Program-made: the position numbers and the translations under genes
Source of the DNA: a virus
Direction: 5' to 3' (one strand)
Length of the DNA: 22,217 nucleotides
IMG/VR virus record: IMGVR_UViG_3300040751_000012
Coordinates: 1 to 22,217 of that record
Shown here: piece after piece, positions 1,405 through 4,533 of the stretch
Numbering within the stretch: position 1 is the first letter of the stretch
Layout: each line of letters starts with the position of its first letter
The notes under the pieces: model-generated
Told to the model about the DNA's origin: nothing
Databases searched by the model: none
The model's input: the letters and a program-made list of their open reading frames with translations, nothing else

Positions 1405-1995
1405 CTATGATGTGTATAAAATATTTATGTCACCAGCTACAAAATTGCCGCTTGCCATCGTAACTCTGACTTGTGTTAAATCGGCCGATAGTGTTTTTTT
1501 TACTGCTGAATAAACTGAATAAGACCCGCCTTCAGCGGCATGACATCTTCCCCACATTACCCATTGCGTTTGGTCTGTACTCATTCTCATAATCGTTGCA
1601 AAACCTGAGTGCTTGGTAGCTCCATAATACCACATTCTTAACCCATTGGATTCAGCAGCAGAGTTAGCGACATAAGTGTTACCAGAACCCGGATATGCAA
1701 CAGAAGATGTATAACCTGTAGTCTCAAACCCACCGCTATCCCCAAGTTGGATAATTCCCCAAGCAGAACTGCTTCTATCCAATTCATTAAATAAAAGATG
1801 AATGACTTTTACATCGCTTGGAATACCTGTAAAATCAACAGTTGTGCCAGATGTAGGCGAAACTTTTGTGCCTTGAGTGTAACCACCAGCACCACTTACT
1901 GTGCCAGTAAATGCAAAGTCATCAGTTAAATCTAAAATAGTATTATCTACAGCATCAGCCGTAAGGCCAGCGGTATCTATCTTTGAAAGTGCCAT
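1405..1995 (-). CDS. Fibre-tip protein (196 aa)
   Basis: Opens with Met-Ala-Leu-Ser-Lys-Ile-Asp, Gly-Leu-Thr-Ala-Asp-Ala-Val-Asp and an Asp-Asp-Phe-Ala-Phe-Thr-Gly-Thr-Val stretch, a short connector common in marine fibres. From about residue 40 follows a tip domain: Ser-Gly-Thr-Thr-Val-Asp-Phe-Thr-Gly-Ile-Pro, Val-Ile-His-Leu-Leu-Phe-Asn, Ile-Gln-Leu-Gly-Asp-Ser-Gly-Gly-Phe-Glu-Thr-Thr-Gly-Tyr. In other phages, as I recall, this domain sits at the C-terminus of long fibres, so here it is again a stand-alone gene. TAGGAGG, the strongest ribosome site in the locus, lies 6 bases before the ATG and suggests high expression. A candidate receptor-binding protein. The paired chaperone-like gene follows 8 bases downstream. 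Confidence 0.78.
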   Translation of the reverse strand: MALSKIDTAGLTADAVDNTILDLTDDFAFTGTVSGAGGYTQGTKVSPTSGTTVDFTGIPSDVKVIHLLFNELDRSSSAWGIIQLGDSGGFETTGYTSSVAYPGSGNTYVANSAAESNGLRMWYYGATKHSGFATIMRMSTDQTQWVMWGRCHAAEGGSYSVYSAVKKTLSADLTQVRVTMASGNFVAGDINILYTS

Positions 1996-2007: not shown

Positions 2008-2370
2008 TTAGTAAGGGCTTGCACCAAGTACAGATGTATCCCAAGCAGCCTTTAGTTCTTCGATGGTAGATGCTGAAGCAATAGCAGCAGCGGCTGGTGC
2101 ATCACGCAGTGCGTTCTTAGCAGCAGCAATAGCTGTTGTGTCTGCACCTGTTTCTAGTGCTTTCATCAGTTCTACGTCTTTGGCTTCAAGCAAAGGCGCA
2201 CGTGCTTCACGTACTTTGTCCTTGAAGATTTCACGTGCTGTTTCAATATCCTCAGAGATTACGTTACCTGAGAGTACCCAAGCACCACGGAAGTGACGGT
2301 CTGAGGGAACGGTTACATTAGCAGCATTTGCCTGATTACCGTCTTTATCTACGATATATGTATCAACCAC
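2008..2370 (-). CDS. Probable tail fibre assembly chaperone-like protein (120 aa)
   Basis: A GTG-started protein. The N-terminal third is beta-rich (Thr-Tyr-Ile-Val-Asp-Lys-Asp-Gly, Phe-Arg-Gly-Ala-Trp-Val-Leu). From residue ~42 it is helical: Ala-Arg-Glu-Ile-Phe-Lys-Asp-Lys-Val-Arg-Glu-Ala-Arg, then Leu-Arg-Asp-Ala-Pro followed by Ala-rich sequence and Thr-Ile-Glu-Glu-Leu-Lys-Ala-Ala-Trp. The Arg-x-Ala-Arg, Leu-Arg-Asp-x-Pro and terminal Leu-Lys-x-x-Trp pattern is shared with phage fibre-assembly and DUF4376-like proteins. It lies between fibre-type genes and would assist folding of one of them, by analogy. Sequence does not show whether it stays in the virion. Confidence 0.7.
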   Translation of the reverse strand: MVDTYIVDKDGNQANAANVTVPSDRHFRGAWVLSGNVISEDIETAREIFKDKVREARAPLLEAKDVELMKALETGADTTAIAAAKNALRDAPAAAAIASASTIEELKAAWDTSVLGASPY

Positions 2371-2376
2371 TTTTAG

Positions 2377-2382
2377 TCTCCT
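2377..2382 (-). promoter_or_regulatory. Shine-Dalgarno that sets a GTG start
   Basis: AGGAGA on the minus strand, 6 bases before GTG at 2370 and overlapping the TAG stop of the gene upstream. No ATG lies nearby in that frame, so GTG is the start. Confidence 0.75.
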
Positions 2383-2845
2383 ATGCGGCTATGTTAAGTT
2401 CCTCAGAAATCTTCCAAGCATTACGCCATTCTCTTGTCTGAGGTAGTTGTTGTTTCTTGCAGATAACCATCTTAGGACGGTTACCTTCGTTATATGTTTT
2501 CCATACAGATTCAGGACAGTCTTTCATAATTAAGTATTCGATTGCCTCTTCCTCTGTCATTGGGCCAACAGGCTCTGTCTGATGCAGAAGGTATCCACGT
2601 GTATGCTTCTTAAAGTTAGGCTGCGCCTCATCTTTAGCCAACTCATGGTACACCCACACAGGTGGAAGGATACCGCCCTGCAATGCACACGCCATCCAGT
2701 TAGGGTCAGGCACAAGTATCTTGGCGCACTCATCAATGCTGTCCTCAAAGACAACACGATAGTCTGACTGCACACCGTCTAGGTTTTCCTTTGCCCAGCA
2801 GAGGCGGTCAAACAGGTGGGTGCCTTGAAACTCTGGTGTATTCAT
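2381..2845 (-). CDS. Conserved phage protein of unknown function (154 aa)
   Basis: A compact globular protein, unlike the Ser/Thr-rich fibre modules around it. It contains Pro-Glu-Phe-Gln-Gly-x-His-Leu-Phe-Asp-Arg-Leu-Cys-Trp-Ala-Lys-Glu-Asn (about residues 4-21), Asp-Pro-Asn-Trp-Met-Ala-Cys-Ala-Leu-Gln-Gly-Gly-Ile-Leu-Pro-Pro (about 47-62), an acidic Met-Thr-Glu-Glu-Glu-Ala-Ile-Glu-Tyr-Leu (about 96-105) and a C-terminal Arg-Asn-Ala-Trp. I recognise close relatives beside fibre genes in many marine phages, from memory; none has a known function to my knowledge. It begins in a TAATG overlap with the last fibre-tip paralog and ends on the ribosome site of the next gene. A fibre-assembly helper or modifier would fit the context. 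Confidence 0.85.
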   Translation of the reverse strand: MNTPEFQGTHLFDRLCWAKENLDGVQSDYRVVFEDSIDECAKILVPDPNWMACALQGGILPPVWVYHELAKDEAQPNFKKHTRGYLLHQTEPVGPMTEEEAIEYLIMKDCPESVWKTYNEGNRPKMVICKKQQLPQTREWRNAWKISEELNIAA

Positions 2846-2859
2846 TAGGCAAGGTCTCC
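2843..2859 (-). promoter_or_regulatory. Shine-Dalgarno built into the Gly-Asp-Leu-Ala codons, junction 3
   Basis: Minus strand GGAGACCTTGCCTAATG: same arrangement as junction 2, with synonymous changes in the Leu and Ala codons but GGAGA kept, 9 bases before the ATG of the 154-residue gene. Confidence 0.78.
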
Positions 2860-3243
2860 GAATATTGCTAAGTCCACTCTTTCAGCGTCTTGATTTCCAG
2901 CATCGTTGTAATCAAGTGTTATTAACCTACAACCACTAGATGCCCTGTTTGCAGTATCACAAGCAGTAAAATCTGCACCACCACCACCGTTGTCTGCATA
3001 TTGTGAAATACCTGAACAAACTGCTGAATAGTTTGCGGCGTTCATACTGCTAGAAAACGATGGTGACATTTTTCCTGCCAACGTATCTGCGACTGAACTT
3101 ATATTAAATGAATCATTTGTTGCGTGACCTGCCCTAGATGTTTGGTCTAACCAAGCCTTCGCACTACCCTCGACAACATAGTTCGTGGCGATTGACCCAG
3201 CGGTGCTGTGTTCCAGCGTATCTGCTACAATTTTACCAGCCAT
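2845..3243 (-). CDS. Free-standing fibre-tip module, tandem paralog 3
   Basis: A 132-residue protein starting Met-Ala-Gly-Lys-Ile-Val-Ala-Asp-Thr-Leu, matching the openings of the two upstream paralogs. It has Gly-Ser-Ala-Lys-Ala-Trp-Leu-Asp (about residues 26-33), Asn-Asp-Ser-Phe-Asn-Ile-Ser-Ser-Val-Ala-Asp (about 43-53), Asn-Ala-Ala-Asn-Tyr-Ser-Ala-Val (about 67-74), three Cys in the distal half and a run of four Gly. The end is Phe-Gly-Asp-Leu-Ala. It is closest to the remembered Lys-Ala-Trp fibre-tip consensus. The next gene starts in a TAATG overlap. The role, as for its siblings, is inferred to be the distal fibre. Confidence 0.78.
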   Translation of the reverse strand: MAGKIVADTLEHSTAGSIATNYVVEGSAKAWLDQTSRAGHATNDSFNISSVADTLAGKMSPSFSSSMNAANYSAVCSGISQYADNGGGGADFTACDTANRASSGCRLITLDYNDAGNQDAERVDLAIFGDLA

Positions 3244-3257
3244 TATGCTAAGTCTCC
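3241..3257 (-). promoter_or_regulatory. Shine-Dalgarno built into the Gly-Asp-Leu-Ala codons, junction 2
   Basis: Minus strand GGAGACTTAGCATAATG: the last codons of paralog 2 hold GGAGA 9 bases before the ATG of paralog 3 in a TAATG overlap. This decides the start at 3243 rather than the in-frame ATG at 3285, which lies inside paralog 2 and would read its coding end out of frame. Confidence 0.8.
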
Positions 3258-3647
3258 CATCATAAAGATGTTGGTTCTGTGCCAATCAATAAGAGATGTA
3301 GTATTAGTGCCACACTCAGCCCCCATTGCAGACGTACTAAGCATAAAACCTGCCGACTGAACGGCAAGATTTTCTGAGCCACTGGCGTACTGAAATGGAT
3401 TGGCCGCACCGCAACAATTGTCAGCAGTGCTGAAAGCATTTGTTAGATTCACCTGCGGTTTTCCAGTCGTTCTATCGAAGAAGCTGGACGAATTTAGGCT
3501 GTCATTTATGCTTGATACAGTCGCAATCATTGCCCACGCTTTTATTACACCCTGTTCCAAAGACTGCGTAGCAGTAGCACCAACCGTCACGGTGATGTCG
3601 TTGGCGGTGGTCTTGCCTGTGAGGGTATCTACTTTTATCTCACTCAT
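3243..3647 (-). CDS. Free-standing fibre-tip module, tandem paralog 2
   Basis: A 134-residue protein aligned with its neighbours by the opening Met-Ser-Glu-Ile-Lys-Val-Asp-Thr-Leu, the Ile-Lys-Ala-Trp-Ala-Met-Ile segment (about residues 35-41), the Asn-Asp-Ser-Leu-Asn-Ser-Ser-Ser stretch, and the terminal Met-Gly-Asp-Leu-Ala. The part between about residue 70 and the end differs from both neighbours and contains a Cys-Cys pair and one more Cys, unusual for a phage fibre domain. The pattern of conserved scaffold and variable distal half fits receptor-facing surfaces, which is inference. Both ends overlap neighbours (ATGA at the start, TAATG at the end), so the three paralogs are translated as a coupled set. 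Confidence 0.78.
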   Translation of the reverse strand: MSEIKVDTLTGKTTANDITVTVGATATQSLEQGVIKAWAMIATVSSINDSLNSSSFFDRTTGKPQVNLTNAFSTADNCCGAANPFQYASGSENLAVQSAGFMLSTSAMGAECGTNTTSLIDWHRTNIFMMGDLA

Positions 3648-4039
3648 GCTAAGTCTCCGTGTACTGACATGCCAAAATATTTAAGGTCTCTCGCGCCAGC
3701 ATCACTTTGGCGGTTATCAGTGTGAAAATCTGATGATGTCATCTGACGGCTACTTGTTGTTGACCTTCCCCACACTCCAAAATCCCCCCCAGCTTCATCT
3801 TGTGCTTGTCCAGTACCAGACACAGCATAAAATGAATTAGAAAAACTATTTGTAAATGTTATTTTGGTAACGCCAGTAGCAATATCTGCGGTTGAAGCAA
3901 TGTTGAGCGCATCTAATGTTGGATGGTCTGTTGCATCTTGGTCAATGGATGCCCACGCCTTCGCCGCACTCTGCTTAGTCAGCGTGACAGGACTGGTGCC
4001 ATCACTAGCACTTATTGTGTTTACTCTTAAATCACTCAT
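3644..4039 (-). CDS. Free-standing fibre-tip module, tandem paralog 1
   Basis: A 131-residue protein, first of three tandem paralogs. It starts with Met-Ser-Asp-Leu-Arg-Val-Asn-Thr-Ile-Ser, then Ala-Ala-Lys-Ala-Trp-Ala-Ser-Ile (about residues 25-32), Leu-Asn-Ile-Ala-Ser-Thr-Ala-Asp (about 45-52) and Phe-Tyr-Ala-Val-Ser-Gly-Thr-Gly (about 70-77). Lys-Ala-Trp, Asn-x-Ser-Ser, and a strand ending Tyr-Ala-Val together form a domain usually found at the C-terminus of long fibre proteins of marine phages; here it is a separate gene. It ends in Gly-Asp-Leu-Ala, whose codons supply the next gene's ribosome site. The start overlaps the previous stop (ATGA). A receptor-contact role is inferred. Confidence 0.78.
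   Translation of the reverse strand: MSDLRVNTISASDGTSPVTLTKQSAAKAWASIDQDATDHPTLDALNIASTADIATGVTKITFTNSFSNSFYAVSGTGQAQDEAGGDFGVWGRSTTSSRQMTSSDFHTDNRQSDAGARDLKYFGMSVHGDLA
3645..3658 (-). promoter_or_regulatory. Shine-Dalgarno built into the Gly-Asp-Leu-Ala codons, junction 1
   Basis: Minus strand GGAGACTTAGCATG: GGA GAC TTA GCA TGA ends paralog 1, while GGAGA lies 6 bases before the ATG of paralog 2 inside the ATGA overlap. It sets the start of paralog 2 at 3647. Confidence 0.8.
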
Positions 4040-4533
4040 GCTATCACCATGTTACCATTAACAGTAATAGTAACTCCTGTTGCTACAGTTAAAGGACCAG
4101 CACACAGAGCGTTGGTATTAGCTGCCACAGTAATGTCTGTGTTCAACTCATCTTCATGTACACGAAAGATGTCAGCAGTTCCCCCACCGCTATCTCCAAG
4201 AAAGCTACCACCACCTAATACAAGGGCAGGGTCTAGCTTGGCCTGTGTAATAGAACCATCAGGGGGTACAGATGTCTGCAATGCTAGTGCATTATACACA
4301 ACGTAAATATCATCTGAGGCAGATACAGTGTAGCCATTAAGGGTAACTGTAGTACCTGCTGCACCGTATGATTCGGTAGGCTCCTGACGGACGTTATTGA
4401 TATATAGGTCAATAGCCTCTGGGCTAGATACAGCGTGGGTCAGTGTTAGTGTCCCACCTGTTGCACCTGTTAAGTCTTGTTTAGCAGGGATGCTGCTGTA
4501 GCCTTGTACAGCCTGATTACCAATGTAACCCAT
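4036..4533 (-). CDS. Fibre-like protein with an N-terminal Gly-Tyr-Ile-Gly domain
   Basis: The 165-residue protein has the marine-phage fibre N-terminal domain: Met-Gly-Tyr-Ile-Gly-Asn at the start, a central Ile-Asp-Leu-Tyr-Ile-Asn-Asn-Val-Arg-Gln-Glu-Pro, a Tyr-Thr-Val-Ser-Ala-Ser-Asp-Asp-Ile-Tyr-Val-Val strand pair, then Pro-Asp-Gly-Ser-Ile-Thr-Gln-Ala-Lys-Leu. The same layout occurs in the 306-residue gene at 184-1104 (Met-Pro-Tyr-Ile-Gly, Leu-Asn-Gly-Val-Ile-Gln-Ala-Pro, Asp-Gly-Ala-Ile-Thr), so the two are paralogs over about 110 residues. The C-terminal ~50 residues are Gly/Thr/Val-rich and may trimerise. AAGGGAGATAG precedes the ATG; the stop overlaps the next start by ATGA. Confidence 0.82.
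   Translation of the reverse strand: MGYIGNQAVQGYSSIPAKQDLTGATGGTLTLTHAVSSPEAIDLYINNVRQEPTESYGAAGTTVTLNGYTVSASDDIYVVYNALALQTSVPPDGSITQAKLDPALVLGGGSFLGDSGGGTADIFRVHEDELNTDITVAANTNALCAGPLTVATGVTITVNGNMVIA

Follow-up and report, generated by a model that had tools for sequence, protein, structure and literature searches.

In the 22,217-base fragment that constitutes IMG/VR virus record IMGVR_UViG_3300040751_000012 (here called the window, to which all coordinates refer), three tandem genes encode small tail-fibre proteins, P1, P2 and P3, each of which ends in the tetrapeptide Gly-Asp-Leu-Ala (GDLA). The overall explanation proposed here, which is considered likely, is that these genes form a row of fixed slots, each holding a receptor-binding tip domain that can be exchanged. 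The exchanged unit, as delimited by alignment with related phages, is the C-terminal domain of each gene, extending from codons for Ala-Lys-Ala-Trp (AKAW; the 5′ box) to the GGAGAC of the GDLA codons, i.e., to a 3′ box that also holds the ribosome site of the following gene. The capsid protein of the window is ~40% identical to that of T7-like marine podoviruses, e.g., HTVC019P and CRP-118.

All three proteins match the PHROG profile phrog_11355 “tail fiber protein” (E-values of 1.6e-11, 1.1e-8 and 1.1e-10 for P1, P2 and P3, respectively), which is also matched by 44 of 44 aligned relatives, and P1 used as a BLAST query retrieves P3 and P2 at ~30% identity; by these measures the three are homologous. 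A Pfam scan of P1−P3 and their relatives yielded no confident family, and a tblastn search with P2 against phage records gave no match. Related loci were recruited using three anchors, i.e., the internal virion protein, P1 and the gene “g13” that follows P3 (583 confirmed relatives in IMG/VR, of which the best 80 were kept). Homologous arrays were found in about 90 IMG/VR loci (cited below by their L numbers), in phage HMO-2011 and in two cyanophages, and the array is thus shared by a large group of phages from aquatic sources.

The exchange is seen when the window is compared with L005, where the products of the tail tube B, GNAT, internal virion, fibN, g11 and g12 genes are 96−99% identical to those of the window (98−99% in amino acids for several flanking genes). 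In all three fibre genes the DNA of the two phages is alike up to the AKAW codons, the body that follows is unrelated, and the sequences are identical again from GGAGAC, i.e., unrelated adhesin segments are found within near-identical flanks in three genes. Judging from these alignments, such a pattern cannot be generated by divergence within each slot alone.

The same bodies are also found in different slots. Among 200 unique genes, pairs of bodies with at least 60% amino-acid identity comprise 18 cross-slot and 16 same-slot pairs, while the N-termini in this comparison are specific to the slot. In the cross-slot pairs (60−95% identical in amino acids) the changeover falls at the KAW codons and inside the 3′ box GGAGACYTNGCAT in 18 of 18 cases as read by eye. 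The mean identity profile of these pairs agrees: identity rises from about 0.3 ahead of the Lys codon to 0.89 from that codon on, is about 0.9 directly upstream of the 3′ box and 0.94 and 0.88 across its two halves, and falls to 0.27 beyond it, and the profile is reversed in same-slot pairs with different bodies. In the best case, slot 1 of L033 and slot 2 of L047, the DNA of the body is 98% identical, while the two genes are unrelated upstream of the AAAGCGTGG codons and downstream of GGAGAC.TAGCAT. The P1 body of the window itself recurs in slot 2 of L031 (89% amino-acid and 93% DNA identity) and, as a T1-slot body, in a second array of L032 (77% amino-acid identity). When bodies were grouped into greedy 50% clusters (single-linkage clustering, in which everything fell into one group, was discarded), 19 of the 29 multi-member clusters spanned more than one slot. 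Copying within a genome was considered and rejected, as no similar bodies (at least 50%) were found inside any one locus.

The type of overlap with the next gene remains fixed by the slot (ATGA in 42 of 47 slot-1 genes and TAATG in 53 of 56 slot-2 genes), and the joint of the exchange must therefore be located within GGAGACYTNGCAT, ahead of the stop codon. At the level of sequence alignment, both boundaries and the movement between slots are demonstrated. An earlier note on this DNA had placed the breakpoints at the GDLA junctions, in agreement with the cross-slot pairs, but had the recombination swap whole modules, whereas a slot keeps its start, its N-terminus and its overlap type, and only the segment from AKAW to GGAGAC moves. 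Its expectation that frame and translation would be kept holds insofar as the GGAGAC...GCAT box is the same whether it travels with the body or is already in place, although less than a gene plus its junction is moved. A 12-base sequence shared by the P1 and P2 starts, TAGCATGAGTGA, is indeed present as an exact match at 3640−3651 and 4032−4043 (0.02 expected), but it does not serve as the recombination junction that the note had made of it: the exchanged sequence stops ahead of the stop codon.

Hypervariable tips next to a conserved frame are also typical of hypermutation by a diversity-generating retroelement and of DNA inversion. As a source of the variable bodies, both are highly improbable, because the bodies differ over their whole length, with insertions and deletions, and can be found again in other slots of other phages with DNA identities of up to 98%. 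The two boxes, moreover, have different sequences and do not form inverted repeats. The adenine-directed point variation of such retroelements was not seen, and reading of the open reading frames of the window revealed no recognizable enzyme of either kind, no systematic search, e.g., for a reverse transcriptase, having been made.

The junctions between the genes account for the second property of the 3′ box. At the P1/P2 junction, GGAGACTTAGCATGAGTGA, the stop and start codons overlap as ATGA and GGAGA is found 6 nucleotides from the ATG, while the P2/P3 junction, GGAGACTTAGCATAATGG, and the junction between P3 and the next gene, GGAGACCTTGCCTAATGA, both display a TAATG overlap and a distance of 9 nucleotides. 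At all three junctions the GDLA codons read GGAGAC(TTA/CTT)GC(A/C) and thereby supply the GGAG(A) of a Shine-Dalgarno (SD) site. The sequence GGAGACYTNGCMT is found in exactly three copies in the window, at 2847−2859, 3245−3257 and 3646−3658, all on the minus strand (0 expected in shuffles). The third of these junctions opens an unrelated conserved gene, g13, not another fibre. Overlaps of the ATGA/TAATG type with the SD site in the upstream gene are those of translationally coupled overlapping genes, and translation of successive slots is probably coupled.

The relation of the tail to coupling was analyzed in a set that is unbiased for the tail, i.e., family members recruited by profiles that lack the C-terminus (287 distinct domains). 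Where there is a gap before the next gene, the protein mostly ends in (A/S/T)(I/V)FR and the SD site is found in the gap; where the next start overlaps, the end is mostly GDLA. An ATG overlaps 73 of 73 GDLA-type ends, but only 20 of 214 other ends (73/0 vs 20/194; Fisher 4e-50, uncorrected for descent). Among 267 distinct GDLA-type ends, 261 overlap an ATG and 6 have an ATG 0−1 nucleotides past the stop codon; apparent uncoupled GDLA genes in L214, L220/L253 and L115 were rejected, as the junction ATG is present and the reading frame is short or interrupted. After reduction to a non-redundant set at 65% identity, an SD-like motif was found in the last codons of 265 coupled genes and was missing in 11, while it was found in 0 uncoupled genes and missing in 97. 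When closest relatives of unlike coupling were matched in disjoint pairs, 165 pairs were concordant, none was reversed and 13 were uninformative. Within the limits of such sequence comparison, dependence of GDLA on tight coupling is established. The earlier note had described the GGAGA sites 6 or 9 bases before the next start and had suggested that the tetrapeptide is conserved partly through this RNA signal; both statements stand.

It could be argued that the GDLA peptide itself is needed, e.g., for docking to the next subunit or a chaperone, and that the match to an SD site is a by-product. GDLA is by far the commonest end, and its Leu and Ala are kept while codons vary (the Leu codon is TTA, CTC, CTA or CTT). 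However, the tail is absent from homologs without a coupled downstream start, and substitutions of the Asp preserve the nucleotide signal (GSLA reads GGGAGT, GELA GGAGAA and GGLA GGAGGC). GGA encodes the Gly in 141 of 145 body-cluster representatives (97%) as compared to 21% in the same genes, and unrelated tails in coupled relatives spell GGAG/GAGG: in FGGR (GGAGGTCGTTAATG), GGNS, GGQA, YGDQ and GVIR, a GGAG or GGAGG is suitably spaced from the next start. A protein constraint on GDLA is thus largely contradicted and is considered improbable; the most fitting reading is that the peptide is carried along with the RNA signal. Homologs in Vibrio and Pseudomonas phages (L123, L127 and L129) display coupled junctions with the tails GGNS, GGR and GGL, which is an independent check of this reading.

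Another explanation of the association is common descent, where GDLA/coupled and FR/uncoupled genes represent two old lineages, such that one event is counted many times. The domain tree is weak and offers only 2 independent pairs on supported branches, which leaves room for this scenario, but it is unlikely for several reasons. Bodies with above 55−60% identity bear either tail depending on coupling (L185 with FR and L072 with GDLA, 62%; L152 and L242, 62%), the same signal is spelt by independent tails in Vibrio, Pseudomonas and Nostoc phages and by the end, CTGGAGGCTAACTAATG, of an unrelated slot-2 protein in L115, and parsimony requires 24 changes in coupling and 26 in the tail SD site.

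The DNA of the two boxes, as far as codon usage reveals, is more uniform than is needed for coding plus an SD site. In the 5′ box, Ala is encoded by GCG in 99 of about 129 cases (14% elsewhere) and Lys by AAG in 114 of 155 (37.5% elsewhere); neither preference has an SD role, and both are present in all slots despite unrelated N-terminal DNA next to the box. In the 3′ box, GAC is used for Asp in 132 of 145 cluster representatives (40% elsewhere) and GCA for Ala in 120 of 145 (background 0.38); even where the ATG imposes no such codon, GCA is found in 71 of 98. The boxes are the sole DNA that different slots have in common. The codon bias at both boxes is clear from these counts, and it is about an even chance that the boxes drive recombination, i.e., that these segments of about 9−13 bp act as crossover homology in addition to being the joints that survive. 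Equally balanced is the broader proposal that GCGAAGGCKTGG and GGAGACYTNGCAT are conserved as DNA so that a tip from any slot or phage can enter any other slot by short-homology recombination, leaving the fold and translation of the next gene intact, and that this conservation sets the C-terminal peptide of the whole fibre family.

A possible, more tentative, alternative is that recombination, either illegitimate at random sites or of the ordinary homologous kind, exchanges the bodies and that the boxes, without promoting crossovers, look like boundaries since only those joints survive that keep the first strand of the fold (KAW) and the ribosome site. Each box does have an evident function of its own, i.e., fold start and SD site, and same-slot donors obtain long homology from the N-terminus of the next gene such that a crossover need not take place in the box. 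Cross-slot pairs, on the other hand, have almost nothing in common outside the boxes, yet they number 18 as compared to 16 same-slot pairs, and the uniformity of GCG AAG at the 5′ box and of GAC and GCA at the 3′ box exceeds the needs of coding plus an SD site. Several points weigh against a role of the boxes in driving exchange or against the coupling analysis on which the model builds. Sharp boundaries are equally expected from random crossovers of which only functional joints survive, joints outside the boxes would often be lethal and hence unseen, the 5′ homology between slots is short, and the GAC and GCA bias could reflect inheritance instead of constraint. Furthermore, 11 of the 276 coupled genes in the non-redundant set are without an obvious tail SD site, and poor support of the domain tree restricts the tree-based independent-pairs test to the 2 pairs mentioned above.

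In the slot model, each slot would contribute its own start and the N-terminal 25−40 residues, which probably anchor the protein at its place in the fibre, while from the AKAW codons on a beta-structured domain would be replaced wholesale, with other phages or other slots as donors. The 3′ box GGAGACYTNGCAT would have three jobs: to encode a GDLA tail outside the predicted fold, to provide the SD site from which the next slot, whose start overlaps, is translated, and to form the 3′ boundary of the exchanged segment, where the DNA of donor and recipient is alike in any slot. With any body between the two boxes, the next gene would thus stay translatable. An AlphaFold2 model of P1 (predicted local distance difference test score, pLDDT, of 79) places strands at residues 28 to 127 and GDLA at 128−131, past the last strand. 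A Foldseek search against BFVD gave 49 hits with E <= 1e-3, among which are the tail fibres of ACG-2014f, Syn5 and S-TIM5, i.e., the domain resembles C-terminal regions of Synechococcus and Prochlorococcus phage tail fibres; sequence and fold searches of the PDB gave no significant match. Because of this likeness to cyanophage fibres, the tail-fibre neighbourhood and the exchange pattern, the domain presumably binds receptors. The features are listed in Table 1.

Table 1. Features of the fibre array and its flanks in the window
Feature	Position	Strand	Description	Basis
P1	3644..4039	-	slot 1 small fibre protein, 131 aa, end HGDLA	open reading frame list, phrog_11355 match, AlphaFold2 model
P2	3243..3647	-	slot 2 small fibre protein, 134 aa, end MGDLA	open reading frame list, phrog_11355 match
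P3	2845..3243	-	slot 3 small fibre protein, 132 aa from ATG, end FGDLA	open reading frame list, phrog_11355 match
5′ box of P1	3953..3964	-	GCGAAGGCGTGG, Ala-Lys-Ala-Trp, upstream limit of exchanged segment	
5′ box of P2	3534..3545	-	ATAAAAGCGTGG, Ile-Lys-Ala-Trp	
5′ box of P3	3151..3162	-	GCGAAGGCTTGG	
Body of P1	3659..3952	-	exchangeable	cross-slot matches in L031, L032
Body of P2	3258..3533	-	exchangeable	unrelated in near-identical phage L005
Body of P3	2860..3150	-	exchangeable	unrelated in L005
3′ box P1/P2	3644..3658	-	GGAGACTTAGCATGA, GDLA codons + SD + stop, ATGA overlap	
3′ box P2/P3	3243..3257	-	GGAGACTTAGCATAA, TAATG	
3′ box P3/next gene	2845..2859	-	GGAGACCTTGCCTAA, TAATG	
g12	4036..4533	-	upstream fibre-tip gene, MGYIG type, ATGA overlap with P1 start	phrog_18673 tail fiber, 1e-7
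g13	2381..2845	-	conserved gene, function unassigned, MNTPEFQGTHLFDRL..., 3′ flank of array	
g14	2008..2370	-	conserved, between arrays	phrog_20196, weakly similar to proteins of tail fibre assembly
Second-array position	1405..1995	-	further KAW genes there in relatives	L005, L032, L038, L039, others

The array is found in an almost invariant gene order, g12 − KAW − KAW − KAW − g13 − g14, where KAW denotes a fibre gene of this type and g12, the 5′ flank, is kept upstream of the array in relatives. Three KAW genes are present in 62 of the 64 loci in which both flanks were seen and two in the remaining two, and on this count duplication or loss of whole genes in this first array was rejected, as was the suggestion of the earlier note that modules are added and removed. 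Gain and loss were seen only in the second array, downstream of g14, where the number of KAW copies ranges from 0 to 5. The cyanophages, Microcystis phage Mel-JY33 and Nostoc phage Nsp-JY18, each carry three KAW genes plus g13, while HMO-2011 (SAR116 host) harbors five GDLA genes of the phrog_11355-type family, interleaved with other genes.

The product of g13, for which no PHROG or Pfam match was found, is 81−96% identical in relatives although the adjoining fibres differ wholly. Homologs are found also in HMO-2011 and, at 44−48% identity, in Microcystis and Nostoc phages and Dunaliella viridis virus SI2; g13 is thus an abundant uncharacterized family. In L115 (805−1413), slot 2 is held by an unrelated 202-residue protein that ends in a ribosome site within the coding region and TAATG (CTGGAGGCTAACTAATG), and the slot is therefore not bound to one protein family. 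In L079 (3581−4603), a single 340-residue protein combines the product of a g12-type gene with a KAW tip domain and retains the LGDLA end and the same junction. P1−P3, g13 and g14 are all absent from L006 (12386−14815) and L025, where several neighbouring genes are 84−94% identical and the place of the array is held by a different tip gene that ends in LMEIAQ*, at a junction with ATGGAGATAGCACAATGA. In HMO-2011 (L042) the same fibre array is found beside different backbone genes, and no homolog of the internal virion proteins and fibN of the window was found in the HMO-2011 stretch compared; the same array beside a different backbone suggests that the array moves between phage types. A GNAT-like frame (13079−13537, minus strand), labelled by eye, is flanked by tail tube B on one side and the internal virion proteins on the other, a position that is kept in relatives.

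The system provides a base-resolved example of receptor-binding tips being reshuffled among several positions without breaking the operon, and a clear case where a conserved protein end is set by an RNA signal and not by protein function, i.e., a warning that conserved C-terminal tetrapeptides should not be taken as interfaces. With 583 confirmed g13 relatives in IMG/VR, exchange rates, donor pools and the choice of breakpoints can be counted in public data.

A literature search, in which few subscription papers were covered, revealed no report on the junctions of phrog_11355-type fibre genes. An exchange of adhesins bounded by motifs has been described before for T-even phages (Tetart 1998, as related in PMC7468147, PMC6027323 and PMC3797505), where, according to these accounts, adhesin domains are swapped between phages at short conserved motifs in or beside the adhesin gene. 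The breakpoints of all 18 cross-slot pairs are likewise found at short conserved motifs. In contrast to the T-even system, the tips described here move between several paralogous slots, the 3′ motif is at once the ribosome site of the next gene and its stop/start overlap, and the proteins belong to another family, phrog_11355; no match to T-even gp37/gp38 was found in Pfam or PHROG scans of proteins of the window and its relatives. Exchange among multiple slots with a joint that is also the ribosome site of the next gene is a new form of this known kind of exchange. It is known in general that at a spacing below about 5 nucleotides the SD site is found inside the upstream coding sequence and constrains it (Palleja 2009, PMC2784483); here, in a family that evolves fast, the SD site dictates the C-terminal peptide and falls on the boundary of exchange, and neither the strength of this constraint nor the coincidence is described in the literature searched. 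The tail fibre region of HMO-2011 (NC_021864, gp28−gp43) is alike in its five GDLA genes with the same coupled junction, located beside homologs of g13 and g14, but it is annotated only as tail fibre or hypothetical, and interleaved genes break the three-slot order. In marine and cryoconite phages, the tip genes of near-identical phages hold unrelated variants that are maintained by recombination (Mizuno 2014, PMC3909814; Bellas 2020, PMC7468147), as is observed also for the window and L005. In those studies of metaviromic islands and flexible host-recognition genes the variable regions were set by read recruitment, whereas here the limits of the cassette and its movement from slot to slot are resolved to the base.

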